Source: a virus
Reading direction: 5' to 3' (one strand)
Virus record (IMG/VR): IMGVR_UViG_3300007735_000969
Location: 1 to 29,935 of that record
Length of the DNA stretch: 29,935 bases
The notes beneath the pieces were generated by a model. It did not search any database. It was given only the letters and a program-made list of their open reading frames with translations, and was not told where the DNA came from. Below are positions 1,497 through 29,415 of this stretch, piece by piece. The translations under genes and the position numbers were made by a program. Each line of letters opens with the position of its first letter. Position 1 is the first letter of the stretch.

Positions 1497-1507
1497 CACC
1501 CCCACTG
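1497..1507 (+). repeat. Intergenic copy of the CACCCCCACTG repeat
   Basis: One of two exact copies in this window that lie outside any gene. It sits in the 46-base gap between the coiled-coil gene and the membrane peptide that starts at 1513, followed by the common extension ATC. It occupies the place where a ribosome-binding site would be expected, yet it is C-rich and cannot act as one. Confidence 0.85.
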
Positions 1508-1512
1508 ATCCC

Positions 1513-1632
1513 ATGAACGACAACATCACCGTCTCCCGTGCGACCATGCACATCCTCGTGGCCTCGTCCATCTCGGGCTGGGCCCTCGCGTTCTTCCTGA
1601 TCGGAGTCCTTCTCGGAGGTGCATCCCGATGA
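1513..1632 (+). CDS. Small membrane peptide, 39 aa
   Basis: Runs from ATG 1513 to TGA 1632 and overlaps the next gene by ATGA. The N-terminus is polar (MNDNITVSRATM), followed by a single hydrophobic segment of about 20 residues ending GVLLGGASR, so a one-pass membrane peptide is expected. No family is recognised. The start is fixed by the lack of other start codons that would keep the hydrophobic segment intact. No Shine-Dalgarno sequence is visible, and the bases just upstream are a copy of the genome-wide repeat. Confidence 0.6.
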   Translation: MNDNITVSRATMHILVASSISGWALAFFLIGVLLGGASR

Positions 1633-1931
1633 CCGTCAAGCCCCCCGCAAAGAACCATCCGTGGCGCAAGCAGGCACCACGCTGGACCCACAACGTCCAG
1701 CACATCCGCCTCGCCTTCCCGCCCTTCACCGACACCGTCCACCACGAGAAGCTCGTCGCCCTCCACCGCGACCTCGTCGAGCTCCTCGCCAAGCACGACC
1801 TCCCGTCCGAGCCCTCGTACACCGGGTTCTACCGGGCCAACGCCGACTGGGACAACATCGACCGTCCCACCGACTGCGTCAACCACTGCGACCGTGGGTC
1901 CAACGCCGACGGAGTCGACAATGAACCCTGA
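1629..1931 (+). CDS. Hypothetical protein, 100 aa
   Basis: Starts at ATG 1629, overlapping the previous stop as ATGA, and ends at TGA 1931, overlapping the next start at 1921 by 11 bases. The first 20 residues are basic and proline-rich (MTVKPPAKNHPWRKQAP). The middle is predicted mostly helical (EKLVALHRDLVELLAKHD). The C-terminal part is acidic with two cysteines (TDCVNHCDRG). I do not recognise it. The junctions on both sides place it in the same early operon, and the codon choice matches its neighbours. Confidence 0.7.
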   Translation: MTVKPPAKNHPWRKQAPRWTHNVQHIRLAFPPFTDTVHHEKLVALHRDLVELLAKHDLPSEPSYTGFYRANADWDNIDRPTDCVNHCDRGSNADGVDNEP

Positions 1932-2542: not shown

Positions 2543-3201
2543 ACCTGCCCGTCTTCCCATCGCACCCCGACTGCCGCACGTGCGGCCGATGGGAACTGGT
2601 ACCCCGGAACCCCGGCGTCCCCACCACCCGGTGGGGATTGCCGGGACCGGACGCTCCCGTCCTCGTCTGCATCGGCCCCGCCCCCGGATACCACGAACAC
2701 ACGCACAACGAACCCTTCGTCGGCAAGCCCGGTCGCCTTCTCCGCGACATCCTGCTTGCCGAACTCTCCACTCTGTGTACCATCTACGGCACGTACCTCG
2801 TGCGCTGCGGACCGGAGCCGGACGCCAAGGCCCGCGACTACAAATCCTGCCACCCCCACTGGTCCTCCGACCTGGCCGCCATCCTCGCCGCCCACCCGTG
2901 TTCCCAAATCCACATGCTGCTGCTCGGTGCCGACGCGGCCACCCAGTTCCACCGCCTGCTGCTCTCCACCCGGTGCTCCCATAAGGACGCGATGGCCCGC
3001 AACGGCAAGCCCGTCACCACCCTCGGCCGCGAACTCCTCGTGTTCTCCACGCTGCACCCGGCCGCCATCCTCCGCAACAACTCCCTCATTCACACCGTCG
3101 AGGATCACATTGAGCTCCTCATCTCCACCGTCCGTGGCTGCGCCCCGATCCCGACCGACCCCGACATCCAGCCACCCCGATCCCCGCACCATCAGCCTTG
3201 A
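2539..3201 (+). CDS. Uracil-DNA glycosylase, family 4-like (Fe-S)
   Basis: The 220-residue product starts at GTG 2539, coupled to the previous gene by GTGA. It shows the marks of family 4 uracil-DNA glycosylases, which excise uracil from DNA. The first motif is GPAPG at residues 46-50, then PFVGKPG at 59-65, and the third motif is TLHPAAILRN at 171-180. Four cysteines at 12, 15, 90 and 104 (CRTC near the N-terminus, then RCGP and CHPHW) match the arrangement that binds a 4Fe-4S cluster in the thermophilic family 4 enzymes. It lies directly upstream of, and overlaps, the DNA polymerase gene. SPO1-like phage polymerases carry a comparable glycosylase-like domain fused at the N-terminus, so this pair may be the split or frameshifted equivalent. 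An exact repeat copy at 2851-2861 encodes HPHW, next to the fourth cluster cysteine. Confidence 0.85.
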   Translation: MNLPVFPSHPDCRTCGRWELVPRNPGVPTTRWGLPGPDAPVLVCIGPAPGYHEHTHNEPFVGKPGRLLRDILLAELSTLCTIYGTYLVRCGPEPDAKARDYKSCHPHWSSDLAAILAAHPCSQIHMLLLGADAATQFHRLLLSTRCSHKDAMARNGKPVTTLGRELLVFSTLHPAAILRNNSLIHTVEDHIELLISTVRGCAPIPTDPDIQPPRSPHHQP

Positions 3202-5170
3202 CATCGAGACCTATGGCATCACCAGGTTCACCGCAGCCGGACGACTCCTCCCCGAGCAGACCGTCTTCCATCCCGCCCGATCGGTCGACGCCGACGGATG
3301 CCCCGTCCGTGACCTTGTTCAGACCGTTTCCGTCACCGTTGCCCGTGCTGATGTTCAGCTGGCCGACCTCCGTCCCGGACCAACCTTCGTCTTCCAGCTC
3401 CACATCCCCGCCCACCGACGGCACCTCGCCCGATGGCTCGGCCACGCGCACACCATCCTCGGGATGAACCTGCAGTTCGACCTCCTCTACCTCCGATCCC
3501 AGCCCGACCTCCGCTTCCATCTCGGCCATCAGGTCCTGGTCGATCTCTCGGTCCTCAACTACCTTCACTCCGAGCTCCGACCCGAACGCTCCCTCAAGGC
3601 GCTCGGTCCCATCCTCGGGACCCATGCCTACCCGAAGGAGCAGCTCGACCGCACCAAGAGATACCACGATGCACGAGATCCCCAGCTCCATCGGTACAAC
3701 GCAGCCGACACCCACAACACCCTCCTCGCCTGCGCCGAACTCGCCCGCCGGATCCGCGCCGACTACCCCGGCACCGACAAGCTCTCCCCCGAGTGCATCA
3801 CCCACTACAGCGACACCGTCTGGACAGTGGTACGCATGTCGGAAGCAGGGGTGCCCATGGATCGGGCTGGCCTACTACAGCTGGAGCAGGACGTTCTGTC
3901 CCGCATGCGGGACCTTGAGGTCTCTGCCCAATCCCAGGGACTGATCCTCTCCGGCAAGGGCTCGGCCCAGTCGAAGCTGGCCCTCATGCAGGAGGCCTGC
4001 ACCCACATCGAGGCCACGCACCCGGACCTCCGATCGCACCCCCTCTTCCAGCTCACCGAGGCCAAGCGCGAGATCGCCGTCAACGACGTGAACCGCCAGC
4101 TCTTCCTCTCGCACCAGCTGCCCGACCACATCAAGTCCCGGCTCGAGCTGCTCGGCACCTACTCCTCGCAGCAGAAGCTCCTGTCCTCCTACCTCTTCCC
4201 GCTCCTGCGCCACCAGCGCATGGACCCGGCCAACAAATCCTCCCGCCTCATCGCCCGGCCCGGCGGATCAGTGGGGGTCTCCTATCCCACGTGGTTCGTC
4301 ACCCCCACTGCATCGAAGGACGGAGCCGGAGGCGAGGGCGGAACCCTGCAGGGGCGCATCACCTGCAAGAACTTCCGGCACCAGACCGACCCCGACGAGA
4401 TCAAGAAGCACTACCGCAGCCGCTGGCCCCACGGTCACATCGTCGGCTACGACCTGTCGCAGATCGAGATGGTCGTGGCTGGCCTGCTCTCCGGCGACGA
4501 GGCCCTGTGCTCGGCGTTCTCCGCCGAACCCCCGCTGGATCTGCACACCAGCCGTGCGACGCAGGTGTTCGGGCCCGACATCGTGAAGGACCCCGACTTC
4601 AAGAAGGTCTACCGCCAGGCCGCCAAGGGTGCCAACTTCGGCGATCTGTTCCGGGCCGGGGCCGCCACGCTGCAGACCCAGGTGTTCAAGATGACGGGCG
4701 TCGTCGTGCCGATGACGATCTGCGACAACATCGTCCGCACCCGTGCATCATCCCGGCCCGGCCTGTGGTCCTGGCAGGAGCGCCTCATCAAGGAGACGAG
4801 GGCCGCCGGGTACGTGGCGCTTCCGTTCATCGGACAATCCCGGCGCTTCATGGGCGGCGACGCATACGACGTCTCCGAGATCGTGAACATGCCCATCCAA
4901 TGCACCGCCGGGAACGTGCTGCTCCGCATCCAGCACCACCTGCACGGGACCCTGCCTTCGATCAACGCCGCCGCCCCCGACATCCTCATGTTCCTCAACG
5001 TGTACGACGCGATCTACTTCGACTGCCGCTCCGACGCAGCCGTTGACCGCCTCGACATCCTGTTCCGTGACGCCTTTGACCACGTGACAACCGTTGGCTA
5101 CTGGGGTAGACTGTGCGCCAAGCTGGGTCGATCCGTTCCGATCCGCTACGAACGCACCATCTACACCTGA
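3110..5170 (+). CDS. Family A DNA polymerase with 3'-5' exonuclease domain
   Basis: About 686 residues; the replicative polymerase of the phage. The exonuclease motifs are present: SLDIETYG (Asp31, Glu33), GMNLQFDLLYL near 118-128, and YNAAD (Tyr196, Asp200). Polymerase motif A is YDLSQIE (Asp448). Motif B is RQAAKGANFG (Arg502, Lys506, Phe510), with a Phe where the usual Tyr of the O-helix would be. Motif C reads NVYDAIYFD (Asp633), so the usual His-Asp-Glu has become Tyr-Asp-Ala, keeping only the catalytic Asp. No ATG lies upstream of the exonuclease motif. TTG 3110 is preferred because GAGG precedes it by six bases; GTG 3134 is an alternative. Either start overlaps the glycosylase gene by 68-92 bases in the +1 frame, so a frameshift fusion is also possible. 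An inverted pair of repeat copies lies at 4269-4310. Confidence 0.9.
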   Translation: MSSSSPPSVAAPRSRPTPTSSHPDPRTISLDIETYGITRFTAAGRLLPEQTVFHPARSVDADGCPVRDLVQTVSVTVARADVQLADLRPGPTFVFQLHIPAHRRHLARWLGHAHTILGMNLQFDLLYLRSQPDLRFHLGHQVLVDLSVLNYLHSELRPERSLKALGPILGTHAYPKEQLDRTKRYHDARDPQLHRYNAADTHNTLLACAELARRIRADYPGTDKLSPECITHYSDTVWTVVRMSEAGVPMDRAGLLQLEQDVLSRMRDLEVSAQSQGLILSGKGSAQSKLALMQEACTHIEATHPDLRSHPLFQLTEAKREIAVNDVNRQLFLSHQLPDHIKSRLELLGTYSSQQKLLSSYLFPLLRHQRMDPANKSSRLIARPGGSVGVSYPTWFVTPTASKDGAGGEGGTLQGRITCKNFRHQTDPDEIKKHYRSRWPHGHIVGYDLSQIEMVVAGLLSGDEALCSAFSAEPPLDLHTSRATQVFGPDIVKDPDFKKVYRQAAKGANFGDLFRAGAATLQTQVFKMTGVVVPMTICDNIVRTRASSRPGLWSWQERLIKETRAAGYVALPFIGQSRRFMGGDAYDVSEIVNMPIQCTAGNVLLRIQHHLHGTLPSINAAAPDILMFLNVYDAIYFDCRSDAAVDRLDILFRDAFDHVTTVGYWGRLCAKLGRSVPIRYERTIYT
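4269..4310. repeat. Inverted pair of CACCCCCACTG-type repeats inside polymerase
   Basis: A reverse copy at 4269-4279 (one mismatch: GACCCCCACTG on the minus strand) faces an exact forward copy at 4300-4310. The two ten-base arms CAGTGGGGGT (4269-4278) and ACCCCCACTG (4301-4310) are perfectly complementary, separated by 22 bases. The encoded peptides are SVGV and TPT, so different reading frames are used. A stem could form in RNA or extruded DNA. Confidence 0.8.
5084..5112 (+). promoter_or_regulatory. Putative sigma-70 promoter upstream of the HTH and nuclease genes
   Basis: GTGACA (5084-5089), a 17-base spacer, then TAGACT (5107-5112): five of six and four of six matches to the -35 and -10 consensus. 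It lies in the 3' end of the polymerase gene, so transcription would start about 50 bases before the ATG at 5174. Based on sequence match only. Confidence 0.4.
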
Positions 5171-5173
5171 ACC

Positions 5174-5476
5174 ATGCCCGAAACCCTGCAACCCAACCAC
5201 CGCCGGATCATCGCCCTCCTCAACAAGGGACACAACGCCGCCGAGGTGGCCTCCATGGTGGACATCTCCCGCAAGCGCGTGTTCGACCTGGCCCGCCGCC
5301 ACGGCGCCCCGACCAACCCGATCGTGAAGCCGGGCGGACGGATCGAGAAGCAGATCGTGAACGCATCCCGCGTCCTCACGATCCCCGAGATCGCGTCGGC
5401 CTTCCGCATCGCCGAGTCCCGGATCAAGGAGATCCTGTCCCGGGTCGACCGCACCACGAAAGCCACCCTTCGGTGA
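5174..5476 (+). CDS. Double helix-turn-helix DNA-binding protein, 100 aa
   Basis: Starts at ATG 5174, three bases after the polymerase stop, and ends by sharing GTGA with the nuclease gene. Two helix-turn-helix-like segments are visible. The first is at residues 10-36 (IIALLNKGHNAAEVASMVDI, then SRKRVFDLARRHG). The second is at residues 60-90 (NASRVLTIPEIASAF, then RIAESRIKEILSRV). Between them is a basic, Pro/Gly-rich linker. This layout suggests a small regulator or a DNA-binding accessory to replication. No family name can be given with certainty; it resembles the N-terminal HTH of many transposase-type and regulator-type domains. Confidence 0.7.
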   Translation: MPETLQPNHRRIIALLNKGHNAAEVASMVDISRKRVFDLARRHGAPTNPIVKPGGRIEKQIVNASRVLTIPEIASAFRIAESRIKEILSRVDRTTKATLR

Positions 5477-6021
5477 AGCGCAGCTGGACCATCCTGCAGG
5501 ACGACCGGGAGAAAACACCCCTCCTGTTCCCCTCCAACATGGTCATGCTGGACGACGCCCACCTCCCCTGCGAACGCCGATCCTGCACCGTTTCGCTCAC
5601 GGTCGCCAAGAAACGCCTGCCCACGGGGGACTACGCCCTGGAAGGCTTCGAGTCCCGGGTCCTGATCGAGCGGAAGAAGCACCTGCCGGAGCTCTTCGCG
5701 AACCTGCTCACCCCCACTGGTCGGGAGCGGTTCGTCAAGGCCTGCGACAGGCTGCGATCCGAATGCGCCCATCCGATACTCATCCTCGAAGGCACCATCG
5801 GCCACCTCGTCAGGACCGCCCGGGCCCAGCTCGACGTGGATCCCTGGCTGGTGGTCGACGCACTTCACCGCATCTGCCTTGAACGACGAATCCAGATCCT
5901 CTACCTTCCAGCCGCAACCCCCGAGCAACGCAGATCAGTGGGGGAGGAAGTCGCGAGACTCCTGATCAACGGAGCCCTGACCCATGCCGAACACCCCGCT
6001 TCAGACGTTCCGGACAGTTGA
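5473..6021 (+). CDS. ERCC4-type (XPF/MUS81-like) nuclease
   Basis: The 182-residue product starts at GTG 5473, overlapping the previous stop. It has the signature of ERCC4-domain nucleases, which cut branched or flap DNA with a metal-dependent active site. The marks are DDRE at residues 10-13 near the N-terminus, LPTGDY at 49-54, and IERKK at 65-69 (the GDY...ERK core), followed by helices with LFANLL and RFVKACDRL. There is no helicase and no obvious helix-hairpin-helix domain, so the protein is a bare nuclease domain. Its place directly after the polymerase suggests a job in resolving replication or recombination intermediates, or in degrading host DNA; this is inference. Two repeat copies lie in the gene, at 5709-5719 (forward) and 5936-5944 (reverse core). 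Confidence 0.8.
   Translation: MKRSWTILQDDREKTPLLFPSNMVMLDDAHLPCERRSCTVSLTVAKKRLPTGDYALEGFESRVLIERKKHLPELFANLLTPTGRERFVKACDRLRSECAHPILILEGTIGHLVRTARAQLDVDPWLVVDALHRICLERRIQILYLPAATPEQRRSVGEEVARLLINGALTHAEHPASDVPDS
5709..5944. repeat. Oppositely oriented repeat copies in the ERCC4 nuclease gene
   Basis: An exact forward copy at 5709-5719 (encoding TPT) is followed 217 bases later by a reverse core copy at 5936-5944 with one mismatch in the full 11 bases. Both carry the preferred extension after the core: GTC for the forward copy and ATC for the reverse copy. Confidence 0.75.
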
Positions 6022-6952: not shown

Positions 6953-6955
6953 AAC

Positions 6956-7422: not shown

Positions 7423-7423
7423 C

Positions 7424-8004: not shown

Positions 8005-8007
8005 CGT

Positions 8008-8547
8008 GTGGACACACGCTACAGCCGCAACCCTGCCGACCATCTCGGCTTCCTGATCTGGTGGTGCAGGGACACGCAGCGCAAGGGCCGCTTCCTCCGG
8101 TGGTCCCACGAGGAGCTGCTGGCCGAGGCCTACATCCAGGCCCACCGCCTGCTCAACTCCAACTTCGACCCGTCCAAGTCCACGGTCGTGACGTTCCTCA
8201 AGGCGTTCCTGTGGGGAGCCGTGCACTACTCGTACTGGAAGAGCCACGGGTTCCGGTTCACCGGGAACGGGGTCGCGCCGAAGGTGCCCTTGACAGATCT
8301 GGTAGATTGTGAATATGTTGCCGTCGACGAGACCCCTGTGTTCAGGCACGAGCTGCCGGACCTGACCGACGAGGAGTGGACCGTTGTGAGGATGAGGTGC
8401 GACGGGTACACCATGACCCAGATCGCCTCGGTGCTCGGACTGAAATCCCCCCAGTCCGTGTACAACCGCCTCGTGAAGATAAGGGGGAAGTTCATGACAG
8501 GAGACGAAGATGCCCCCCGAGACGATCCCGACCCCCCTCCCGACTGA
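8008..8547 (+). CDS. Sigma-70-family-like factor, 179 aa
   Basis: Begins at GTG 8008, four bases after the previous stop. Residues 35-78 (HEELLAEAYIQAHRLL, then FDPSKSTVVTFLKAFLWGAV) resemble sigma region 2 ('DDLVQEAY.....FDPSRG.F.TWL'). Residues 118-160 (LTDEEWTVVRMRCDGYTMTQ, IASVLGLKSPQSVYNRLVKIR) resemble the region 4 helix-turn-helix that reads the -35 element. The size fits an ECF-like factor. It probably redirects host RNA polymerase to a set of phage promoters, for example the late leftward operon; that target is inference. Region 2 is divergent, so a transcription regulator that only resembles sigma remains possible. A sigma-70-type promoter lies in its coding sequence. Confidence 0.65.
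   Translation: MDTRYSRNPADHLGFLIWWCRDTQRKGRFLRWSHEELLAEAYIQAHRLLNSNFDPSKSTVVTFLKAFLWGAVHYSYWKSHGFRFTGNGVAPKVPLTDLVDCEYVAVDETPVFRHELPDLTDEEWTVVRMRCDGYTMTQIASVLGLKSPQSVYNRLVKIRGKFMTGDEDAPRDDPDPPPD
8290..8319 (+). promoter_or_regulatory. Putative sigma-70 promoter upstream of the recombination genes
   Basis: A perfect -35 TTGACA at 8290-8295, an 18-base spacer, and TATGTT at 8314-8319 (four of six). The stretch 8296-8320 is markedly AT-rich for this genome. It lies in the middle of the sigma-like gene, about 190 bases upstream of the nuclease gene at 8510. Confidence 0.45.
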
Positions 8548-9937
8548 CCACGGACGCAGCGCCCGCATGTACCTCGAGACCGAGGGACTGATCGCCCGCG
8601 TCCCCTCCATCCGCTCCTCCGACTACAGCTCCGCCCTCTCCGATCCGTTCGGCTACTACCTGCGGCGACGCCTCGGCCTCACGCCCGCGCTCTCGTACTC
8701 GGAGGCCCTGTCCCGGGGCTCGTACTTCCACACGCTGTTCGCGCTCTACGACCGCGACGACCGCTGGCAGATCTTCAAGCGGCAGTGCGAGTCGCGCATC
8801 GCCGAGATCAACCAGATCTGCAGGGATCTCCGCATCACGGAGACCGCACGTGCCGACGCCGTGCAGAACGAGCGCATCGACCAGGCCTACGCATCAGCGT
8901 GGTACGACGCCTTCGAGAACCTGCCCTGCCTCAACAAGGACAGCGCACTCGACATCCTGTCGGACAACTTCGTCAAGCTGGGCGCCGAGCTCCGGCTGAC
9001 GTGGATCGACGAGCGGTTCCCGAAGACCCGGCAGGTGGCGCAGTTCGACCTGCTGCTCCTCAACCGCAAGACCAACAAGCTGTGGATCGTGGACGCGAAG
9101 ACGACCGCCGCACCCCCACTGATCAGGTTGTCGACGGTGCGCGAGGAGTTCCAGACGCAGCACTACCTCCATGCGCTCGAGTGGTTCCGGGACCGTGGCC
9201 TGCTGTCGCGCGAGTACCCGCAGGTCCCGGCGGACGCGGAGATCGGTGGCATGATGCACGTCGCCATCCTCAAGCCGTCGATCCAGTTCGGCCAGGCGGA
9301 CCGCGACTTCCACTGGGAATCCGAGGGCAAGCGCACGGGCGTGTCCGGGCGCATCATGAGGACGCCAGTCACCCTGCAGTCCCGGGGGACCCACGTCATC
9401 AAGTGGACCGCCAACGCGCCGTACCTCGAGCCGTTCTGCGGCAGCGTGGACGAGTGCCTGCAGGAGCTGCACGAGCGCACGGGCAAGAAGCCGGAGCGCG
9501 TGTACCAGGGCGAACCATCCCTTGCCAACTATGTACAGCGGTGTAGCCGCTGGTACAAGGGCGAGGGCGAGTACCTCGACAGGGCGCCTGACTTCGACAA
9601 CGATCCACCTATCAACATTTCGTACACCCACGCATCGACAATGCTTGACAAGGATTGGAGATTGTCCTATCTTGATCGCGTTGCCATGATCCATGACCTG
9701 GCAACAAGAGAGGCAAACCCATGCAACTTCCTCAAGAACATCGACGCATTGCGGATGGGATCGAAGCTGGCGAACTTCAGTCCGTTCTACCTGACGGAGC
9801 CGAAGGACTGGCCGATGCTGGTGCAGGCTCAGCACTTCCTGATCGCGCACCGCGACGGAGGCGATCTTCCCGCAAGTCCGGAACCGCACGAGTTCGAGGG
9901 ACTGATCGAGAGCCTCGAGCCCGAGCGCCTCACGTGA
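8510..9937 (+). CDS. RecB/Cas4-like PD-(D/E)XK exonuclease, 475 aa
   Basis: ATG 8510 is supported by AGGAG six bases upstream, although it overlaps the sigma-like gene by 38 bases. The N-terminal SSDYSSALSDPFGYYLRRRLG corresponds to the 'S.S....CP..Y' start of RecB/Cas4 nucleases. RGSYFHTLFALYD supplies the motif I His (His74). The catalytic core is QFDLLLLN with Asp180, then LWIVDAKTT with Asp195 and Lys197, and the QxxxY motif is QTQHY (Gln215-Tyr219). Such enzymes resect DNA ends and, beside a Sak4-type annealing ATPase, make a phage recombination pathway. Four cysteines for a Cas4 iron-sulfur cluster are not evident. An exact repeat copy at 9111-9121 encodes APPL directly after the catalytic DAK strand. 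The last quarter of the gene is AT-richer and holds a promoter-like sequence. Confidence 0.8.
   Translation: MPPETIPTPLPTDHGRSARMYLETEGLIARVPSIRSSDYSSALSDPFGYYLRRRLGLTPALSYSEALSRGSYFHTLFALYDRDDRWQIFKRQCESRIAEINQICRDLRITETARADAVQNERIDQAYASAWYDAFENLPCLNKDSALDILSDNFVKLGAELRLTWIDERFPKTRQVAQFDLLLLNRKTNKLWIVDAKTTAAPPLIRLSTVREEFQTQHYLHALEWFRDRGLLSREYPQVPADAEIGGMMHVAILKPSIQFGQADRDFHWESEGKRTGVSGRIMRTPVTLQSRGTHVIKWTANAPYLEPFCGSVDECLQELHERTGKKPERVYQGEPSLANYVQRCSRWYKGEGEYLDRAPDFDNDPPINISYTHASTMLDKDWRLSYLDRVAMIHDLATREANPCNFLKNIDALRMGSKLANFSPFYLTEPKDWPMLVQAQHFLIAHRDGGDLPASPEPHEFEGLIESLEPERLT
9645..9673 (+). promoter_or_regulatory. Putative sigma-70 promoter for the HTH-Sak4-SSB genes
   Basis: A perfect TTGACA at 9645-9650, an ideal 17-base spacer, and TATCTT at 9668-9673 (four of six). 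It lies in an unusually AT-rich part of the exonuclease gene. Transcription from here would cover the DNA-binding protein, the Sak4-like ATPase and the putative SSB. Confidence 0.5.
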
Positions 9938-10278
9938 TGTTCCACGACGAGTACGTGCGGCTGGTGATCAAGCCCAAGGTCGACATGATCCTCGAGGATG
10001 GCGTCGACTCCATCGGCCAGCTCACCGCCCGCTTCAACGAGACGTTCGAGTGCAAGGTCTCCAAGTCCCGCATCGCCGAGTGGCTCAAGCTCCTCGGGTA
10101 CCGGGTCACCCGCGTCGTGCACATCGCGCGGCCCGAGCGCAACCGCCCGCAGCCCCAGCAGGAGCCACGGATGCAGGAGCGCGAGGAGTTCAGGACCGAG
10201 CACCGCCAGATGCAGTTCAACTACCCGGCGCCACAGGGCGTGTTCAGCAACGTGGTCATGCCGGGATTCCAGGAGTAG
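9937..10278 (+). CDS. Small DNA-binding protein, 113 aa
   Basis: ATG 9937 overlaps the nuclease stop as TGATG; GTG 9934 is a near-identical alternative. Residues 14-50 (MILEDGVDSIGQLTARFNET, then KVSKSRIAEWLKLLGYRV) form a helix-turn-helix-like unit in which the second helix SKSRIAEWLKLLG would contact DNA. The C-terminal half is basic and Gln/Arg/Pro-rich and probably disordered, ending in a short NYPAPQGVFSNVVMPGF tail. Its location between the exonuclease and the annealing ATPase suggests a recombination mediator or a local regulator. No family is recognised. Confidence 0.65.
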   Translation: MFHDEYVRLVIKPKVDMILEDGVDSIGQLTARFNETFECKVSKSRIAEWLKLLGYRVTRVVHIARPERNRPQPQQEPRMQEREEFRTEHRQMQFNYPAPQGVFSNVVMPGFQE

Positions 10279-10282
10279 AAAG

Positions 10283-11786: not shown

Positions 11787-11832
11787 CACCCCCACTGATC
11801 GAGGGGGTGGGGCCCACAAGCTCCACCCCCTC
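11787..11832 (+). terminator. Strong GC hairpin with overlapping alternative hairpin that uses the repeat
   Basis: The arms 11801-11813 and 11820-11832 form a 13-pair stem (GAGGGGGTGGGGC with GCTCCACCCCCTC, one G-U pair) around a six-base loop. It lies just after the SSB stop codon. No T-run follows, so it is not a textbook intrinsic terminator and may be Rho-assisted or an RNA-stabilising end. An exact repeat copy at 11787-11797 begins with CACCCCC, which can instead pair with GGGGGTG at 11803-11809. The two stems share bases and cannot form together. Confidence 0.55.
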
Positions 11833-19934: not shown

Positions 19935-19936
19935 GG

Positions 19937-21589
19937 TCAGCCTCCGATGTATCCGGCGAGTTCGGCAAGCCGACGCTCAGCCTCGTTGAGTCCGCGCAAC
20001 CGTCCCTCCGCCTCGATCTGCGGCTCGAGCCGCCCGAGGTTCTCCTCGACGCCGAGGGCATCGAACACGGACTGGACCTTCTGACGGCCGAGGCCCTGAA
20101 GCATCTGCCCGTACTGCTCCGGGCGCAGGAACTGCAGCCGGGGATCGGCCTGGATGAGCCGTGCGCTCAGGGCCTGGATCTCCTCCTGCGACATGCCCAT
20201 GGTCTCGAGCTCCTGCACCAGGTTCTGCAGCTCGGTGCTCTGGCCCATGCCGTAGGCGATCTCCGCCTTGCGGACCACCCCGGACATGTCGCGCTTGGAC
20301 ATGTCGCTGATGGGTCGTCCGGCCACGCGGGTCATCATCTCCTTGTCGTTCAGCACACCCTGGATCATGTCCTGCACGGTGTCCAGGCCCTTCAGGCTTT
20401 CGTCGAGAAGCTGGATCTCGGGAGCGTCACCCCCACTGGCCTGGTAGCTCGCGAGCGCCTCGCCACGGTTCATGCTGATGGTGTCGAGGCCGTCGAAGAG
20501 CGCCATGATCTGCTCGTCGCCCATGCCGAACTGTCGCATCTTCGCGATGTTCGACGCGATCCGCTCGCGGGTCTGTACCTGGTCGACGCCACGCGCACGG
20601 GGATCGAGACCCGCAAGGATGCCTGCATACGTGACGGCCTCGGCGGCGGCTGCTGCAGCTCCGGCCTTCTCCGCACCCTCAAGACCGAACGCAGGACCGT
20701 TGAGGTCGATCGCGTTGTGCACGATCGAGGTCGCCATCGCGCTGCCGTTCTTCATGAACTCGGTGGCACGTCGACGCGCGAGATCGGCGTCCCCGGTGCT
20801 GCCGAAGAACTTCTGCACCTCGTCTGTTGCGGTCTTCAGAACCATGAAAGACGGGTCAATACCCATCTGCTGAAGTCCACCTTCGGCGGTTCTTTGTCCG
20901 GATTCAGACACGTAGGTATCCAAGGCCCGGTTGATCTCGTTGAGGAAGCCGCCTTCCAGTTGGTCCTTGGTGACCGCGTACTGGTATCCCGACAGCACGG
21001 CCTGATCCGCGATGCTGCGACGCTCGCGAAGAGCCTCCTGGTAGGCGGTCATCCTCGCCTTCACTTCCCCAAGACGGTCCTGACGGACACCCTGTGCCAG
21101 CCCCATGCCGATCTCGGCGGCCCCGATCATCTCCTCCAGGTTGGCCGCACCCATCTGAAGATCACGGCGCTTGGCGCGGAACTCCTTGAGGCGGGGATCG
21201 TCCGACTTCATCGCGGCGATCTCCTGCTCGTTGCGGGCCAGGTCCATGTCGAGCTGCTTCATCTTCATGGAGATCAACCGCTCGAGCCTCGCCTGCTCCC
21301 TGTTGAAGCCCATCGTGGCCTCGAACTGACCCTGCTGCTGGCCCATCTCGGCCTGCGCCATGCGCTCCCGGCTCGCGTTGAGCTTCTCGTAGTTCTCGGC
21401 TTCCGCCTGCAGGCCACGCTCGAACTGCTGGCCCTGCTGCGCCATCTTCTGGCGCTCCAGACCCATCTGCTGCTGGGCGAGGGCGAAGTCCATCTTGGCC
21501 CGCTGGTTCTGCGATGCGAGGCCGAGGGCCTGGGTTCCGGCCGCAAGGCCTCCGAGGAACTGGTCGGTGTTGCTGGGAATCGCGCTCAT
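19937..21589 (-). CDS. Coiled-coil internal virion-like protein, 550 aa
   Basis: ATG 21589 shares ATGA with the upstream gene; it ends two bases before the next start. The first 170 residues are Gln/Met/Ala-rich and helical (AKMDFALAQQQMGLERQKMA, then NREQARLERLISMKMKQLDM), strongly suggesting long coiled coils. The rest stays helical with moderate charge, including an Ala-rich tract (EKAGAAAAAAEAVTYAGILA). There is no signal peptide or enzyme motif. Three consecutive genes with this style are typical of podovirus internal core proteins (T7 gp14-gp16 type), which leave the capsid ahead of the DNA. The assignment is by architecture and order. A repeat copy at 20428-20438 encodes ASGGD. Confidence 0.65.
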   Translation of the reverse strand: MSAIPSNTDQFLGGLAAGTQALGLASQNQRAKMDFALAQQQMGLERQKMAQQGQQFERGLQAEAENYEKLNASRERMAQAEMGQQQGQFEATMGFNREQARLERLISMKMKQLDMDLARNEQEIAAMKSDDPRLKEFRAKRRDLQMGAANLEEMIGAAEIGMGLAQGVRQDRLGEVKARMTAYQEALRERRSIADQAVLSGYQYAVTKDQLEGGFLNEINRALDTYVSESGQRTAEGGLQQMGIDPSFMVLKTATDEVQKFFGSTGDADLARRRATEFMKNGSAMATSIVHNAIDLNGPAFGLEGAEKAGAAAAAAEAVTYAGILAGLDPRARGVDQVQTRERIASNIAKMRQFGMGDEQIMALFDGLDTISMNRGEALASYQASGGDAPEIQLLDESLKGLDTVQDMIQGVLNDKEMMTRVAGRPISDMSKRDMSGVVRKAEIAYGMGQSTELQNLVQELETMGMSQEEIQALSARLIQADPRLQFLRPEQYGQMLQGLGRQKVQSVFDALGVEENLGRLEPQIEAEGRLRGLNEAERRLAELAGYIGG

Positions 21590-22842
21590 GCGAAGGCTCC
21601 GAAGTTAGGCACGGCGATGTTCTCGATGCCGGGCGTGGTCGCTCCCGCCAGGTAGCCGCTCAGGCCTGCGAACATGCTCACGAACTGCTGGGGATTCTGC
21701 CGGATCATCTCGGCAACCGACTGACGGCCCTGCATCTCGAACAGCACCGACTGCTGCATCGCGCTGGCCATCGCGTTCTCTCCGGCCATGCGGATGTTCG
21801 CACCGAGCTCGCGGACCTGCTGGCCCAGCTGCTGGTTCATCTGCATCGCCTGCAGGGTCTGGCCCCCGAACGTCGTACCCATCTGGCCACGGAGCTGGCC
21901 GCCGGACAGCGTCTGCTGGGCCTGCGACTGCCGGAGTCCCGCGAGGTTGCCCTGCATCGAGGCGATCTGCTGGTTCATGTTGCTGAAGATCCCGGTCACC
22001 GACTGCGTGACCTGGTTGCTGACGTCGCCCATCAGCTGCTGCTTGAGAGCCGCCTTCTCCGCCGGGTTGGCGTCGAGCATGTCGATCTCGGCCATCCGGC
22101 TCTGGGCGCTCTGCCGCATGCCGAAGGCCGCGTTGGCCGCATCCTGGGCGCTGGTGTCCCGGAACTCGCCGATGGCCTTCTCGTAGCCGGACACGGCCGC
22201 AGCCGCCTGCTGGTTGGCTGCCGCGATGTCCTGGCCCACCTGGCCCATCTGCTGGTCGCGGAACGTCTTGAACTCGTCGAAGTCCCGCTGGCTCTGCGCG
22301 GCCCCACGCTCGACGCCTGCCGCGATCTGCTGCAGATTCGCCCGCTGCTGGGCCGCCGACCCCTGCAACGTGCCGATGCCCCGCTGCAGCGCCTCCTCGG
22401 TCAGCCCCGTCTGCTGCTGACCCTGCTGGAACATCTGGTTCATCGCGCCCTGCTGGTTCCGCATGTCCGTCGCCATCGCGTTCGCCAGCTGCTGCTGCAT
22501 GTTCACGGCCTGCGGATCCGGACCGCCGAACTGGAACGTCGTCCCGGGGGACCTTCGGCCTCCGTACTGAGCCGCGATGCCCATGGTGCCCCCTGCCCTC
22601 GGCACGAACTCCCGTCGACCACGCATCGCCTGCGGGGCCTGGATCGGGGCCTGGGCCATGCCACCCCCACTGGATCCCATGCGCTGGCCCATGCCTCCGG
22701 GCACCCCTGGACGGGAACCGGGGCTGCCACCACCCTGCCGGAAACGGGACGAGGCCATGCGCCGGGCGGCGTTGCCGAAGCCGGACGGACCGAAGTTGGA
22801 GAACGCGGACAAGGGGTCTTGGTTGGAGTTGAACTGGCTCAT
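21586..22842 (-). CDS. Gln/Ala/Met-rich internal virion-like protein, 418 aa
   Basis: ATG 22842 overlaps the upstream stop (ATGA). The first 95 residues are Gly/Ser/Arg-rich and probably disordered (RFRQGGGSPGSRPGVPGGMG). Residues 100-370 are very rich in Gln, Ala and Met with helical periodicity (QQQLANAMATDMRNQQGAMN, then MQGNLAGLRQSQAQQTLSGG). The C-terminus is more hydrophobic (SMFAGLSGYLAGATTPGIEN). This fits a small internal virion or ejection protein. Earlier ATGs in the same open frame would run back into the tail-protein gene and are rejected. A repeat copy at 22662-22672 lies in the disordered region and encodes SSGGG. Confidence 0.7.
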   Translation of the reverse strand: MSQFNSNQDPLSAFSNFGPSGFGNAARRMASSRFRQGGGSPGSRPGVPGGMGQRMGSSGGGMAQAPIQAPQAMRGRREFVPRAGGTMGIAAQYGGRRSPGTTFQFGGPDPQAVNMQQQLANAMATDMRNQQGAMNQMFQQGQQQTGLTEEALQRGIGTLQGSAAQQRANLQQIAAGVERGAAQSQRDFDEFKTFRDQQMGQVGQDIAAANQQAAAAVSGYEKAIGEFRDTSAQDAANAAFGMRQSAQSRMAEIDMLDANPAEKAALKQQLMGDVSNQVTQSVTGIFSNMNQQIASMQGNLAGLRQSQAQQTLSGGQLRGQMGTTFGGQTLQAMQMNQQLGQQVRELGANIRMAGENAMASAMQQSVLFEMQGRQSVAEMIRQNPQQFVSMFAGLSGYLAGATTPGIENIAVPNFGAFA

Positions 22843-25800
22843 CAGCTTCCTCGAATGTGGGAGGACCTTTCGACCGAGGTGATCGACCCGCGCACGATAC
22901 ACCCGAGCAGCCGGAAGTCGAGATCCGGGCACAGGATCCGGATGCCCGGCGTCAGGGAGTTGCCCTTCACGCCGTAGCGCCCGTCTGAAGAATCGGATCC
23001 GAAGGCCGCGTACACCATGCCTTCGTCGTCTTCCACCGACGAGTACAGCTCTCCAGCGGTGGTCTTGGTGAGGGCCACCCTGGACGGGTCTTCCTCGACG
23101 CCCGAGTACACCAGCCCGGAGAATCGGGCCATCGGTGCGCCAGCGGTTGCCGCATCGTTCTTGTAGGGATCGGAGACGTCGCTGAATGCGGCGCCGATGC
23201 TGCTGATCACCTTCATCCGGAAGAAGTCCGCGTTCGAGAACACCATGCCCTGCTCGTTCTCGAGGCCGATCGGATGCCCGGCCCACTCGAACACGATCGG
23301 GCTCACCGCGAAGACGTCTCCGACCTTGACCGAGGTGATCCACGATGTGGACCCGGTCGTGTACTCGGGATACACGAACGAGGACGTGTTGTACATGACG
23401 CGAACCTTCTTGCCGATGTCGTTCGGATTCTGCGTCGACCACACCAGGTACATGTAGCCGAACTTCCAGGCATCGGTGCCGACCGTGGTGTTGGCCGAGG
23501 AAAACTGGAACGACTTGTTGATGTTGTCCCAGGTGCTGGTGGCCACGAGACGGGCGTCCCCGTCGAAGTCGAGCGTGGTCAGCCGCCTGAATCCGATCAG
23601 CGACGGGAACCCGGTCTGCACGGTCTTGACCGCGTTGACATCGACCACGTACACGCGCGGTCCGTCGAAGCTGTTGTAGCCAGCGGGGGTGCCAGGGCGA
23701 TTCTCCTGGTTGTTCTGCAGGAAGAACGCCCTTCGGCATAGGTCGTTGGAGGCCTCGAGTCCGGAGGTCCAGTTGATCGGCCAGGATCCCTGGGCGCAGT
23801 GGTTGAAGTTCGCGTCCTTGACCTTGGTGGTCTTTCCGGTCGAGAACCACAGGATGTAGCTCTCGAACTGCACCGGGTTGTGCACGAACAGGCAGTTCAT
23901 GTAGGGGTCGTAGGCGACCTGCACGGACGACAGGTCGTTCTTCCACTCGCGCACGATCACCGAGTTGATGTTCCGGATCTCGTCGAGCTGTCCCTGCATG
24001 TCGACGCTCTTGAGGCCGTGGCTCGTCACGAAGTACGCCGACGAGCCCACCGAGTCCACGGCCTTCGGATTCACGATGCCGTAGCCCTCGTGCATCTCGG
24101 TGACCTTGATGTACGGGCCGCTCTTGCGGACGTGGTACACCTTGTCCCTTGACAATCCGATCACGTTGGAACCGACCTTCGCGAACCGCACCACCTCGTT
24201 GCTGGGCACGGTCGGGTTGTATCGGTTGAACGGCGGGAACAGCTCCGGGCTCATGTCCATCAGGCTGGACCACCTCATCTCGCCGAGTCCGCGCACGACG
24301 TCGGTGGTCCGGTCCAGCTCCGTCGTCGACGCCGGGGGGACCTCCACCTTGGACACGAGCATCGTGTTCTGGTGGAACATCGCGGTTCCGCCGAACGGCA
24401 TCTTCTCGTCGAAGACGCTGCGGTCCACATACGGATCCTGGTACACCAGCTGCTTGTCCTCCAGCTGGTAGAAGTACATCGCATGCCGCGTCGTGGTCGC
24501 GTCTCCGAACGTGCGCCCGGTTCCGTTGAGGCAGGTGTGGTAGTCCGACAGCTGGATGATCGCGTCAAGGAACGGAAGCCCGGCGATCATGGTGCCGCCC
24601 GCATCCTGGATCTTCACGCTGCGGTACACGTACATCATGTCGTACTTGCTCGAGTCGTACACGACCTCGATGCCGATGTAGTGGTCCTGCTTCGTGCTGA
24701 TGGTGTTGCCGCCCTCGGTGCGGACCGCCATGAAGTCCTCGCTCCGCACCTGCGCCACGGAGCTGAACGCGCTCTTCCTTCCCGTCTTCGAGTTCACGAG
24801 CACGTATCCGAAGCTGTAGTCGCCGGGCTCGAACTTCCGGGCCTGGAACCTGTGCTCCGTCGTGAAGGTGCCCACGGAGCTCTGGTACAGGAACCCGGTG
24901 CAGTCGGTCCTCTTGACCTGGACCTTCCACTGGTACTTCTTGCCGTATGCCAGGCGCTGGTTCGGGAACAGCGAGGCCGGGGAGTACGACGTCGTGGTCA
25001 GCCCTGTGACGACGCAGTGGTTGTCGATGTTGCCGAGGCCGTCCTCGATGAGGAACACGTCCCAGCGCACGTTCGCGTTCAGCGCGGTGCCGCTCGGGTA
25101 GTACGACGTCCAGTCGAGCTTCGGCGTGACGCTGACTCCCGTCTGCCTGTTCGCCGGATTCAGCAGCTGCGTCAGGATCCCGACCCCGTCGGTGCATGCC
25201 CCACCAGTCGCGCCATGGGTGTACGGGCTGCCGGGCTGGGTCACCGCTCCGGCCGCAGGCACGGTGTCGTTGTAGCAGATGCCCGTCGCCTCGTTCGGGA
25301 ACAGGTTCTCCGCCGAGTACGGATCGCTGTCGACGAGCACGACCTGTGCGCTGGCCGGACGACCAGTCGCCAGGTTCGTGAACGACCCGGGTGCGATGCC
25401 CCGTTCCGGGCTCAGCAGCGTCGGCTGCATTCCCGGCCCCGGGATCGTGCCGCTGCCCGTGAGCCCGATCACAGTGGGGGTGAGGAACACCTTGTTGGTG
25501 TACGTCACCGTCAGCTTCGGACGGATCGAGTAGTTGGGCTGGGTCCTTCCGGCGAGCGACAGCAGGAGCCCTCCGGTCGTGCCGCGCACGATCACATCGG
25601 TCTTCCGCGTGAACGCCTGCGAGGCTCCGGTGATGGCCCGCTCCACGATCGTCGTGGCATCCCACGAGACCCTGCCGAGGAAGCCCACCCCCACTGTATT
25701 GCTGACCTGGTACGTCGCGTCGTAGCTGCCGCCAGCCGTGCTCCACGCGGTCGCGGTGGCACGGTTGTTCCAGGTCACCTGCGACTCGTTCCACAGCACC

Positions 25801-26540: not shown

Positions 26541-26543
26541 GGT

Positions 26544-27047
26544 TCAACCTTTCGGTTCCTCGAGCGGAACCCTCTTCGCAGCCAGATTATCCCATGCCCC
26601 GGTGGGGCACTTCGCCTCCGGCATCGTCGCCTTGATCGTCAGCTCCGCCCGTCCACGCTCCCCGCAGCCGCAGGCCGTGCACCAGCCCAGCTTGCCAGCC
26701 TCGTTCGCCCGCTTGAGATTCTGACAGCCGTTGCAGATCTCCAACCGATCGCGGTACTGATCCGCAGGCACGGGTCCCTTGACCACCCTGCTGATCTCCG
26801 CCTTCGCCCAGCTCAGCGCCTTCGACACGAACCCCGGCGCCGCCTTCTTCACTTCCTTCAGTTCCTGGGTCCTCCGTTCCTGGCGGGCCTGCTGGAACTT
26901 CGCCACATGCTCCCCGTCCTTCATGTCCGGCAGGTTCAATGGCACGAATCGCCGCATCGAACACGCCGAACACCGGGCCTCGAACGCCGGAGTCCTTCCG
27001 ATCCTCGGATGCCTGCACGTTCCGTCGTTGTCCCAGAAGCACTTCAT
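26544..27047 (-). CDS. Zinc-ribbon-like cysteine protein of the virion operon, 167 aa
   Basis: ATG 27047 overlaps the upstream stop (ATGA) and the gene ends three bases before the tail-protein start. Cysteine pairs occur at 26/29 (CSAC), 105/108 (CNGC) and 123/126/128 (CTACGC), with another Cys at 147 (CPTGAW) and two at 3 and 11. The C-terminal half (RLEICNGCQNLKRAN, then CTACGCGERGRAELTIKATM, then CPTGAW) has the layout 'C..C......C..CGC...K......CP...W' that I know from small phage zinc-ribbon proteins. The middle is a charged helix. A metal-binding structural or assembly role is likely; the precise function is unknown. Confidence 0.7.
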   Translation of the reverse strand: MKCFWDNDGTCRHPRIGRTPAFEARCSACSMRRFVPLNLPDMKDGEHVAKFQQARQERRTQELKEVKKAAPGFVSKALSWAKAEISRVVKGPVPADQYRDRLEICNGCQNLKRANEAGKLGWCTACGCGERGRAELTIKATMPEAKCPTGAWDNLAAKRVPLEEPKG

Positions 27048-28615
27048 ACGATGTCGAACCCCCACGTGATCGCGTGCTCCGTGGTCCCCGTGAAGCTTGG
27101 GAAGTCCGGACACACCAGCTCCACGTCCCCGCAGACCACCGAATCCACCGTGGACGTGACGAACTGCCCGGTAGCCTGATTGACCCACACGCACTGCTCG
27201 GACTGGACCGACGCAGGGTACGTCCTGGTGCAGCAAAACGGGTAGCTGTGTCCGGTGGTGTCTCCGTACTGGTACACGACCTTCTTATCCCGATAAGTCC
27301 TGTCGAGAGGGGTGCAGTAGTCGGCCACGCCGCACATGTTCAACAAGCTTATGAAGTTGAACGGGTCAAGAGAGAAGCCCATCACAAGGCCAGAGCTCGG
27401 GGGATACAGATTGAACAGTGGAGCCCCGATGGACGGCGGATTCGGAAGGTACATCATGCCCGAGGGATGATCCCCAATGAAGCCGTTGCCGGAGTCGCAA
27501 GGCGTGATCGGATCCTCGAACGTCGACGACGACATGCAGTTTCCGGAACCGATGATCACCCAAGGGTCGATGGACGGCAGGTTCACGTTGTACGACGTGC
27601 TACACGCTTCGGCCGGGGCACTGCAGCCCTTGTTCATGCAGGGACCCATGCAAAGGTCGTGCGTGTGCACCCCCACTGAAACCTGGTTCGGGTTGGGGTT
27701 GAAGATCAGGATCGGACGATCGCACTCCGTGTCGCACTCGCGCTTGCAGGAGATCGTGATCACGGAACCCGGCACCCAGTGCGACTGATGCTCGTTGCAC
27801 CAGGCCGCATTGCTCTGGAGCCCGGTGTTGATCAACAGCCCAGCCTGGTTGTACTGGGCGGGGCGGCCCTGCAGCGTCACGTTCCAGACCCACGACCTCT
27901 CCTGTATGACCTTGACGAGGATATTGGCCGCAGGCTTCGGACCGAATCCGTCGCATGCGTTCTCGTCCGCCCATGCCTCCTGGAACTCCTCGCAGTTCCA
28001 GAAGAAGCATTCGTGTCTTCCAGTGCTGGAACCGTCGCACGTGAACTGGTTGCTCCTGCAGTAGTTGGCGTCCGTGCACGTGCAGAACCCTGTGTTGATG
28101 TCATAGACACCCAGGGATACGGCGCAAGGACATGCCGAACGCAGACACTCGTTGTTGTACTGGCCGTCGTACTCAGCTTGAGCCCCAACCGATGGAGAAT
28201 CAATGGTGGTAGCTTCGTAGGTGCCGTCGCCGTCAAGGTCGAAGCGGAAGTGTCGATCACAGATCTGGTAGTCATTTTGAAGGCCAGTGGTCCCGTTACC
28301 TGCGGTGCCATCGGTCGGGACATCGGATCCGCCGACGGACCAGATACGCTGGATGTACTCGTAGGAGAAGTCGCAGGAGTTCGCGTAGTAGCGGTACGTG
28401 GCGCAGCTGCTTCCGGTGCGCTGCACCGTCGCCGTGATGGACCAGTGGATCTCTCCCGTAGTTATCGTCTGGTTCGACGGACTGAACGTCTCCTGCTCGA
28501 TCCAGCTTCCGGTGAGCACGATCGTGAACGGCGTCGACGGACTGCAGGCCCAGAAGTCGCAGCAGTCGGGACAGCTCTGCTTCTGGCAGCAGCACCCGGA
28601 GGAGACCACGCTCAT
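27044..28615 (-). CDS. Extremely cysteine-rich virion-operon protein, 523 aa
   Basis: ATG 28615 overlaps the upstream stop (ATGA). By my count the product has about 37 cysteines (7%), which is very unusual for a phage protein that folds in the cytoplasm. They occur as CCC and CC pairs, CPDCC, and CxC pairs such as SACPC and FCTCTDANYC, spread along the whole length. Between them is Ser/Thr/Asn/Gly-rich beta-like sequence. A DLDGDGTYEA segment near residue 126 looks like a calcium-binding loop. There is no signal peptide. It could be an adhesin or fibre stabilised by disulfides or metals. No family is recognised. The upstream neighbour also carries C....C motifs. A repeat copy at 27668-27678 encodes SVGV. 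Confidence 0.7.
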   Translation of the reverse strand: MSVVSSGCCCQKQSCPDCCDFWACSPSTPFTIVLTGSWIEQETFSPSNQTITTGEIHWSITATVQRTGSSCATYRYYANSCDFSYEYIQRIWSVGGSDVPTDGTAGNGTTGLQNDYQICDRHFRFDLDGDGTYEATTIDSPSVGAQAEYDGQYNNECLRSACPCAVSLGVYDINTGFCTCTDANYCRSNQFTCDGSSTGRHECFFWNCEEFQEAWADENACDGFGPKPAANILVKVIQERSWVWNVTLQGRPAQYNQAGLLINTGLQSNAAWCNEHQSHWVPGSVITISCKRECDTECDRPILIFNPNPNQVSVGVHTHDLCMGPCMNKGCSAPAEACSTSYNVNLPSIDPWVIIGSGNCMSSSTFEDPITPCDSGNGFIGDHPSGMMYLPNPPSIGAPLFNLYPPSSGLVMGFSLDPFNFISLLNMCGVADYCTPLDRTYRDKKVVYQYGDTTGHSYPFCCTRTYPASVQSEQCVWVNQATGQFVTSTVDSVVCGDVELVCPDFPSFTGTTEHAITWGFDIV

Positions 28616-29415
28616 GTGCAGTTCACCTGGAGCGGATTGACCATGTGGAACCAGGGAACCCCGGCCTCGTCCATGAACATCGGCACCCGGGCCCCGACGG
28701 GGATTGCCAATCTGGTGAGCGTGGCACCCGTGGGCGGGACGTTGCCTCCGTTGTTGGCGACGCTGTACTCGTGCTCGTTGATGGCGAGGCCGGAGACGCC
28801 GCTGGTCCTCGGGTTGGTGCGGGCCGTGACCTCGGTCCAGCCGTACTGGTAGTACGTCGGGGAACCCGGCAGCGGCGATGTCAGCGGCGCGGACACCGAG
28901 GTGATCTGGGCCTTGAACATCGTCTGCGACGGACCGTAGCCGCAGTCGCAGCCGGAACCTGATCCGCCCGTGCCACCCCCACTGGTCGCGCCGCACGTGT
29001 CGGCAAGGCACTCGTCGATGCCGAAGTACAGGCCGTTGGGATCCTGCAGGCACTTGCCGGAGACGCACGAGTAGCGGATGCGCTCCTCCGGCCCCACGGG
29101 TGGAACCGATTCAGGGTTGGCCGTACCGGAGACGGCCGATGCCGCCGGGTTCGAGAGCACCGTGAAGAACGGCGTCGAGAATCCGCCGGACCCGTCGGAG
29201 ATGGGCCCGAAGAAGGAGGAGGCCAGCGACGGACCCGTGAGCTCCGGCACCGTGCCCGGCGCCGAGTACGGCATCACGTCGAAGAACTTCAGTGGGGGTG
29301 CCACCGTCACGACCTGGAACCCGAGGTTGATCCGGTTCGTGAGGGAACCGGAGAACGTCGGCAGGATCTGCTCGAACTCGCGGTTCGCGGTGTTGAGGAG
29401 TTCGTCGTTGGCCAT
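28612..29415 (-). CDS. Virion-like protein with Cys/Gly-rich central insert, 267 aa
   Basis: ATG 29415 overlaps the upstream stop as TGATG and its own stop overlaps the next start. The N-terminal half contains ELLNTANREFEQILPTFSGS and beta-like stretches. In the middle is a compact cysteine cluster (YSCVSGKC, then FGIDECLADTC) and then a Gly/Ser linker with a CDCGYG end. The C-terminal part is beta-rich, with GARVPMFMDEAGVPWFHMVN at the end. The cysteine spacing resembles small disulfide or metal-binding modules found in phage fibre proteins. No family is recognised. Repeat copies lie at 28974-28984 (TSGGG, in the Gly-rich linker) and at 29290-29300 (reverse, PPL). Confidence 0.65.
   Translation of the reverse strand: MANDELLNTANREFEQILPTFSGSLTNRINLGFQVVTVAPPLKFFDVMPYSAPGTVPELTGPSLASSFFGPISDGSGGFSTPFFTVLSNPAASAVSGTANPESVPPVGPEERIRYSCVSGKCLQDPNGLYFGIDECLADTCGATSGGGTGGSGSGCDCGYGPSQTMFKAQITSVSAPLTSPLPGSPTYYQYGWTEVTARTNPRTSGVSGLAINEHEYSVANNGGNVPPTGATLTRLAIPVGARVPMFMDEAGVPWFHMVNPLQVNCT

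Follow-up and report, generated by a model that had tools for sequence, protein, structure and literature searches.

A dispersed DNA motif kept by selection within the coding genomes of one uncultured phage family

The window analyzed here, a 29,935-nt stretch of DNA, covers part of the genome of an uncultured, lytic-looking phage whose relatives have genomes of approximately 53 kb. The phage encodes a polymerase, an SF3 helicase, a PD-(D/E)XK exonuclease, a Sak4-like ATPase, an ERCC4-type nuclease and an SSB-like protein (Table 1). Among 38 scanned proteins, which covered the late gene block in part, we recognized no primase, integrase, repressor, ParB or HNH nickase; the absent primase may merely be unrecognized, or may be supplied by the host. 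We found no RNA families, and no annotated relatives in the phage collection by DNA, terminase, exonuclease or Sak4.

The window also carries the 11-base motif CACCCCCACTG. Our recount returned the 18 exact copies reported in an earlier sequence-only reading, 15 forward and 3 reverse, and one-mismatch matches were present at four further positions (2563, 4269, 5936 and 23681). Sixteen of the 18 exact copies lie within genes, while those at 1497 and 11787 fall outside all gene models, in agreement with their earlier placement between genes. As had also been observed, the coding copies occupy several codon phases and the 3′ flank favors RTC; we counted ATC in 5 and GTC in 4 of the 18 copies. Coding copies run both sense and antisense, being sense in the left gene block and mostly antisense in the right one.

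Table 1. Motif copies and candidate reader genes in the window ("kept" gives the number of genomes retaining the site).
Feature	Position	Strand	Remarks
Exact copy	1497..1507	+	Intergenic, outside gene models
Exact copy	2851..2861	+	Uracil-DNA glycosylase (UDG) gene; HPHW in the gene's frame
Family-A DNA polymerase	3182..5170	+	Possible user of the signal
One-mismatch copy GACCCCCACTG, core intact	4269..4279	-	DNA polymerase gene; core kept 12/16
Exact copy	4300..4310	+	DNA polymerase gene; core kept 8/16
Exact copy	5709..5719	+	ERCC4-type nuclease gene; core kept 14/19
Reverse copy CTCCCCCACTG	5936..5946	-	ERCC4-type nuclease gene; core TCA GTG GGG, rare TCA included, kept 19/19
RecB/AddB-type PD-(D/E)XK exonuclease	8510..9937	+	Possible user of the signal
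Exact copy	9111..9121	+	PD-(D/E)XK exonuclease gene; codons CCC CCA CTG kept 20/20
Small three-helix HTH-like protein	9937..10275	+	Between exonuclease and Sak4; in both genera; weak candidate reader
Sak4-like ssDNA annealing ATPase	10280..11179	+
Exact copy	11787..11797	+	Intergenic; some relatives with a neighboring copy
Exact copy	14254..14264	+	Large late gene, antisense; kept 4/12
Exact copy	14851..14861	+	Large late gene, antisense; not kept
Convergent pair of exact copies, 17587 (+) / 17607 (-)	17587..17617		Inside gene 17332-17700; 11-bp arms, 9-base spacer
Exact copy	18203..18213	+	Late gene, antisense (Ser-Gly-Gly); not kept
Exact copy	20428..20438	+	Late gene, antisense; not kept
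Exact copy	22662..22672	+	Late gene, antisense (Ser-Gly-Gly)
Exact copy	25472..25482	-	Late gene 22842-26540; not kept
Exact copy	25686..25696	+	Late gene 22842-26540; kept 2/9
Exact copy	27668..27678	+	Late gene; not kept
Exact copy	28974..28984	+	Late gene (linker)
Exact copy	29290..29300	-	Late gene; not kept

The motif is far above chance, as previously claimed: dinucleotide shuffles of the window (n = 100) gave a mean of 0.08 copies and a largest count of 2, against 18 in the real sequence. After 1000 rounds of synonymous-codon shuffling inside the genes, 2.13 copies remained on average, 2 of which were the untouched intergenic ones, so that approximately 0.13 coding copies are expected with codons preserved versus 16 observed; this run read the UDG segment 2543-3178 in the overlapping polymerase frame, which affected one site. 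Multiple reading frames, antisense copies and the codon shuffles rule out a peptide-level explanation, and the shuffles, along with retention of the motif in relatives, support the earlier proposal that selection acts on nucleic acid; neither of the two outcomes named in advance as refuting it was observed. Evolution retains the motif even though it is dispensable to the genes. We could also rule out an assembly or adapter artefact, because many separate metagenome contigs carry the motif and its flanks drift among them, as well as promoters or operators, since the copies have no tie to gene starts and are not co-directional with genes.

The core CCCCCACTG was kept in all of the approximately 20 close relatives (polymerase 75-93% identical), which carry 21-35 core copies on their longest contigs, roughly 30% of them reverse, at a density of about one every 1.5-2 kb throughout the two gene blocks. 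A distant genus (polymerase approximately 40% identical) keeps TCCCCCCAC(T). Scoring site conservation on gene-wise codon alignments, we found three sites frozen throughout the relatives, even at rare codons, with drift at adjacent synonymous positions; most other sites, including those in late genes, turn over, and the density persists. The earlier suggestion that copies sit in tolerant positions holds for the turned-over sites and for the Ser-Gly-Gly linker of the scaffold gene; the frozen copy of the exonuclease gene does not fit it. Results for dispersed sites identified with a PWM agreed with those for the exact core. A 14-base scan for other families carrying the motif returned mostly single chance matches, and the core-dense contigs were family members or short fragments. 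These data show CCCCCACTG, whose flanks vary with the lineage, to be a signal that one phage family carries at the DNA level. It is kept by selection and independent of genes and transcription, and we have high confidence that it belongs to the class of phage-encoded DNA signals.

Phages carrying the motif span a G+C content of 45-67%, so its presence depends on the phage and not on the composition of one host. This bears on the idea that it mimics a host genome signal, namely a DNA uptake, Chi or segregation motif. Uptake sequences have a comparable density and regular spacing, but the motif tracks the phage lineage over this whole G+C range, and 483 bacterial genomes from two phyla, which may not include the host, showed no enrichment over the reversed control. 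These genomes represent the phyla of two MAGs that contain distant relatives; the relatives found in MAGs were all distant, lay on three contigs and say little about the host. Mimicry, raised in the sequence-only reading, is thus unsupported in these genomes, and we regard it as very unlikely.

The 15:3 orientation bias in the window is real, but the argument that had been built on it fails because the C-rich top strand yields such a bias: near-sites one to two mismatches from the core are distributed 63 forward to 24 reverse, compared with 16:5 for exact cores (p = 0.81), and this control rules out the window strand bias as evidence of polar function. Composition likewise predicts the strand ratio in each close relative tested, and no polarity beyond composition is therefore seen in the close genus. 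Two distant genomes did display a bias beyond composition, G012 (17:3, p = 0.001) and G013 (15:6, p = 0.014); G015 did not. Spacing along each strand was more regular than chance. Forward-strand gaps in the window had a CV of 0.43 versus 0.99 in subsets of 2-mismatch sites (p = 0.0003), comparable regularity (p < 0.005) was present in seven of nine genomes, and forward gaps below 1 kb and above 5 kb were both rarer than chance. With the strands combined, spacing was not clearly regular, suggesting that distance counts along one strand.

Localized nicks in virion DNA, as in T5 or phiKMV-like phages, had been put forward as one role; a phage nickase would leave these ligatable breaks at its recognition sites, as also in phage tf. 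In tf and LUZ24-like phages these sites read 5′-TACT/RTGMC-3′ and number 9-14 per 46-kb genome, and the resemblance includes a short asymmetric motif (9 bases and 14 copies in tf) that occurs in both gene blocks regardless of gene direction and differs at one base among relatives (PMC3517423). The genome of tf shares the two-block layout, the sites of PaP3 are likewise regularly spaced (CV 0.43), and ACT followed by a purine is common to both motifs, which otherwise share no sequence. The defining feature of strand exclusivity nevertheless fails: tf confines its sites to one strand (14:0) against composition (near-sites 99:121), whereas here the sites divide between the strands as expected from composition, about 30% of the 21-35 sites per large contig being reverse. 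In addition, 19 of 19 genomes retain one reverse copy unchanged, nicking at convergent copies, 18 bases apart, would sever both strands, and neither an HNH nickase nor a ligase was found among the 38 scanned proteins (late block in part). Nick sites therefore appear distinctly improbable.

The motif is probably a signal for the machinery with which the virus itself copies or repairs DNA, and the regular same-strand spacing seen here, independent of genes, is a feature expected of start sites. We tentatively favor, as a possibility still well short of an even chance, a start or processing signal, phage-specific and strand-read, for the replication-recombination machinery, for example a set of dispersed DNA-synthesis start sites. 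The signal would be read on one strand by the phage polymerase, SF3 helicase, RecB-type exonuclease, Sak4 and SSB-like protein, and its likeliest job would be to start DNA synthesis on the displaced or lagging strand. The main strand would need a site every few kb and the other strand less often, at no fixed places, and when a site is lost a nearby replacement would soon be favored. Three observations count against start sites, namely a strand ratio in the close genus that composition fully explains, reverse gaps of up to 13 kb and the absence, on complete maps, of the orientation switch expected from two-way replication from a single origin.

The closest comparisons are the T7 primase, which starts at 5′-(G/T)2GTC-3′, and SCCmec CCPol-MP. 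The start sites of both are read on one template strand, as the motif would be if it has a priming role, but these sites are short or degenerate and are not counted out along the genome. CCPol-MP offers a precedent: it is a family-A polymerase acting with a helicase; it primes at preferred sites, preferring to start opposite C, and the partner helicase binds such a site (PMC7581432). Unlike CCPol, the phage polymerase has an exonuclease domain, judging by its motifs. Known primases require just 2-5 bases (PMC7581432), and a priming site of 9-11 bases would therefore be unusual. The more specific proposal, that a phage family lacking a recognizable primase has hard-wired approximately 25-35 coding-embedded start sites, one every ~2 kb, read by its own replication proteins, strikes us as unlikely; if true, such a dispersed, turnover-tolerant replication signal would be of a kind not described before.

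Convergent copies bear on a Chi-like or self-protection role, in which the motif would stop or switch the phage RecB-type exonuclease or a host resection enzyme, so that phage ends are resected only briefly and handed over to Sak4. The convergent pair in the window recurs with identical spacing and a different spacer in G005, G023, G008, G002, G021 and G007, and convergent pairs within 250 bp number 26 against 8 expected, an arrangement that would shield a break on either side; such pairs are, however, partly common by descent. The exonuclease gene adjoins the Sak4 region and itself contains a copy kept unchanged in 20 of 20 genomes, and, like the Chi sites of RecBCD and AddAB, the motif is over-represented, genome-wide in both orientations and gene-independent. 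Known Chi sites, however, are host signals of only 5-8 bases that should abound in the host genome, whereas the present motif, at 9-11 bases, tracks the phage and was enriched in none of the 483 bacterial genomes tested, which may not include the host. The phage exonuclease also comes without a helicase or Chi-scanning partner of phage origin, and a Chi-like role seems to us unlikely.

Sites for a DNA-binding protein that organizes, silences or marks the genome, whether stoperator-like or serving packaging or compaction, would account for other features. The paired inverted site, its two copies always offset by 18 bases, points to binding by a dimer, and the phage has small HTH-like proteins. 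Like the stoperators of Cluster A mycobacteriophages (13 bp, ~24 copies), the motif is asymmetric and dispersed in many copies, with a consensus that drifts between lineages, as that of stoperators does between subclusters; recombination between direct stoperator copies has been reported (PMC5712189), and mutual avoidance of same-strand copies, as seen here, is expected if recombination deletes close direct copies. Cluster A stoperators are mainly intergenic, oriented with transcription and positionally conserved, whereas here 16 of 18 copies are intragenic, orientation does not track transcription and most sites turn over, and we reject membership in that class on location and orientation. 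A temperate-phage repressor reads stoperators; none, nor an integrase, was found among the 38 scanned proteins (late block in part). The best candidate reader, the HTH-like protein encoded at 9937-10275, is predicted to form three helices (pLDDT ~84-91 over the first 50 residues) and returned no significant match in a fold search. Its HTH diverges strongly in G009 and G011 (29% identity) while the motif core is unchanged, and we therefore demoted it to a weak candidate. Overall, binding-protein sites are an unlikely explanation.

The motif imposes a strong, family-wide, DNA-level constraint on coding phage genomes and fits none of the known classes tested. Since the core is conserved over approximately 60% protein divergence, its reader should be among the handful of shared genes, and could be found by direct binding tests. 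If the copies are replication starts or Chi-like control points, replication and recombination would become mappable in uncultured phages from sequence alone, and the family would offer a clean case of selection on the density of a signal and not on its position.

The 18 exact copies of CACCCCCACTG reported by the sequence-only reading were recovered in the window at the same positions, 15 on the + strand and 3 on the − strand, compared with 0.08 in shuffles that kept dinucleotide content; four further places lay one mismatch away. The shared inner core, CCCCCACTG, occurred 21 times, with CA as its 5′ flank in 18 cases and often with RTC after it, in agreement with the 3′ preference noted earlier. 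No comparably over-represented second word was found in the window. The earlier proposal that selection acts on nucleic acid withstood shuffling of synonymous codons within genes, which yielded ~0.13 coding copies versus 16 real ones, a result unchanged by the reading of one segment in an overlapping frame.

The motif was also maintained in relatives. Every close relative (family-A DNA polymerase 75–93% identical) was core-dense, with 21–35 copies per large contig and lineage-specific flanks (C-A, A-A or G-C precedes the core and A or G follows), while in a second genus (polymerase ~40% identical) TCCCCCCAC(T) replaced the core, with 20–21 copies in each of two 50-kb genomes. Because the flanks vary by lineage and the second genus carries an altered form, across phage G+C contents of 45 to 67%, the motif must be old and drift along with the phage. 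No excess over the reversed control was detected in 294 + 189 bacterial genomes belonging to the same phyla as two MAGs that hold distant relatives; these phyla may not be those of the true host. An array in one control bacterial genome seems to be a tandem or CRISPR-like repeat with no relation to the phage motif (see table).

Codon alignments revealed sites frozen at the DNA level: CCC CCA CTG in the exonuclease gene (unchanged in 20/20 genomes), TCA GTG GGG, a reverse-strand copy, in the ERCC4 gene (19/19), and AGT GGG GG in the scaffold gene (9/9). These include the rare codons CCA, TCA and AGT, each used 3–5% of the time; at other four- or six-fold degenerate columns of the same genes, a single codon was kept in only 10–15%. 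In late genes, most window copies were absent from all relatives, which have their own copies nearby. Mean retention was 0.34 for window sites versus 0.145 for other 9-mers, the excess being due to the early-gene anchors; at turned-over sites, density is what selection retains.

Features discussed in the text, with their locations
Feature	Location	Strand	Details
Inverted motif pair 17587/17607	window 17587-17617, inside coding gene	+ then -	11-base arms, 9-base spacer
Small three-helix, HTH-like protein	window 9937-10275	+	in both genera, flanked by RecB-type exonuclease and Sak4; conserved C-terminal tip NVxMPGFxE
Three small early-block proteins	window 5174-5476 and 7726-8547		HTH or sigma-region-4-like stretches
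One early-block product	window 7726-8004		matches to MerR-like and small-terminase profiles
One early-block region	window 8008-8547		relatives have one motif copy each, position differing
Capsid-like gene of a relative	L074:16470-18185		zero core copies in 9/9 genomes
SF3/D5-type helicase of a relative	L075:11192-12652		no attached primase domain
ACCCCCACTG array, control bacterial genome	G372:C14:7-106		four copies, exactly 30 bases apart, contig end

The argument that the 15:3 orientation reflects polarity did not hold, since the + strand is C-rich and near-sites (1–2 mismatches from the core) already run 63:24 forward, making this ratio expected. Composition accounted for the strand ratio in every close relative tested; among distant genomes, the bias exceeded that expected from composition in two (17:3 and 15:6) and not in a third. 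No orientation switch point was found on complete maps. In tf, a phage with known localized nick sites, those sites run 14:0 against near-sites of 99:121, whereas the motif here occupies both strands as composition predicts, and by this one-strand criterion the motif is not a tf-type nick site.

Spacing in the window was regular along the forward strand, where the coefficient of variation of gaps was 0.43, versus 0.92 under uniform placement; random draws of 2-mismatch near-sites gave 0.99 (p = 0.0003). The same comparison with near-sites gave p < 0.005 in 7/9 genomes, tests that are not independent because of shared ancestry. When forward gaps were pooled, those shorter than 1 kb or longer than 5 kb were fewer than chance, a pattern also seen in G013 and G015, two relatives' genomes. 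Loss of DNA between repeats, a process reported in stoperators (PMC5712189), could also explain why close direct copies are scarce. With strands combined, spacing was not clearly regular, and the distance that matters is therefore the one along a single strand. Reverse copies lay within 250 bp downstream of a forward copy in 26/85 cases versus 8 expected (opposite order, 7 versus 8), an enrichment that is suggestive only, because several pairs are identical by descent. For the tabulated pair, relatives (L073-L086) kept the arms and 18-base offset constant, with a different spacer in each.

The record is linear (29,935 bases), with a + strand left block encoding uracil-DNA glycosylase, family-A DNA polymerase, ERCC4-type nuclease, PD-(D/E)XK exonuclease and Sak4, and late genes on the − strand at right. 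Genes for an SF3/D5-type helicase, terminase, portal and capsid are present in addition in complete relatives (~53 kb). A 99-base terminal repeat on one relative's contig (G008) and the differing map starts among contigs show the map to be circular or circularly permuted. AT skew tracks transcription direction in the window and complete relatives; GC skew is mostly negative over both window blocks and slightly positive past ~31 kb on the rotated map of complete genomes. No annotated phage close to the window phage was found. Among the matches listed for 38 proteins of one genome (Pfam, and 25 of the 32 matched PHROGs families), there was no DnaG- or AEP-type primase, integrase, repressor, ParB or HNH nickase. 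Matches named "DNA primase" cover the helicase half only, and in the genome carrying the tabulated helicase a primase was recognised nowhere else.

Motif position and orientation ignore genes, which speaks against a regulatory role. The tabulated HTH-like protein is a weak candidate reader, since its HTH is strongly divergent in two genomes with an unaltered motif core; in L017 and L020 a divergent version takes the place of its N-terminal half. The reading left is of a signal spread across the genome, which phage proteins would read along a strand. Our second choice is that the motif controls the phage's own resection in a Chi-like way, and our third is an architectural or regulatory protein-binding site. 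We favour candidate start sites for DNA synthesis, because density matters over position, per-strand regularity is on the kilobase scale, and the motif drifts slowly with the replication genes; such sites would also suit a phage without a recognisable primase and have a fitting precedent in CCPol-MP (PMC7581432).
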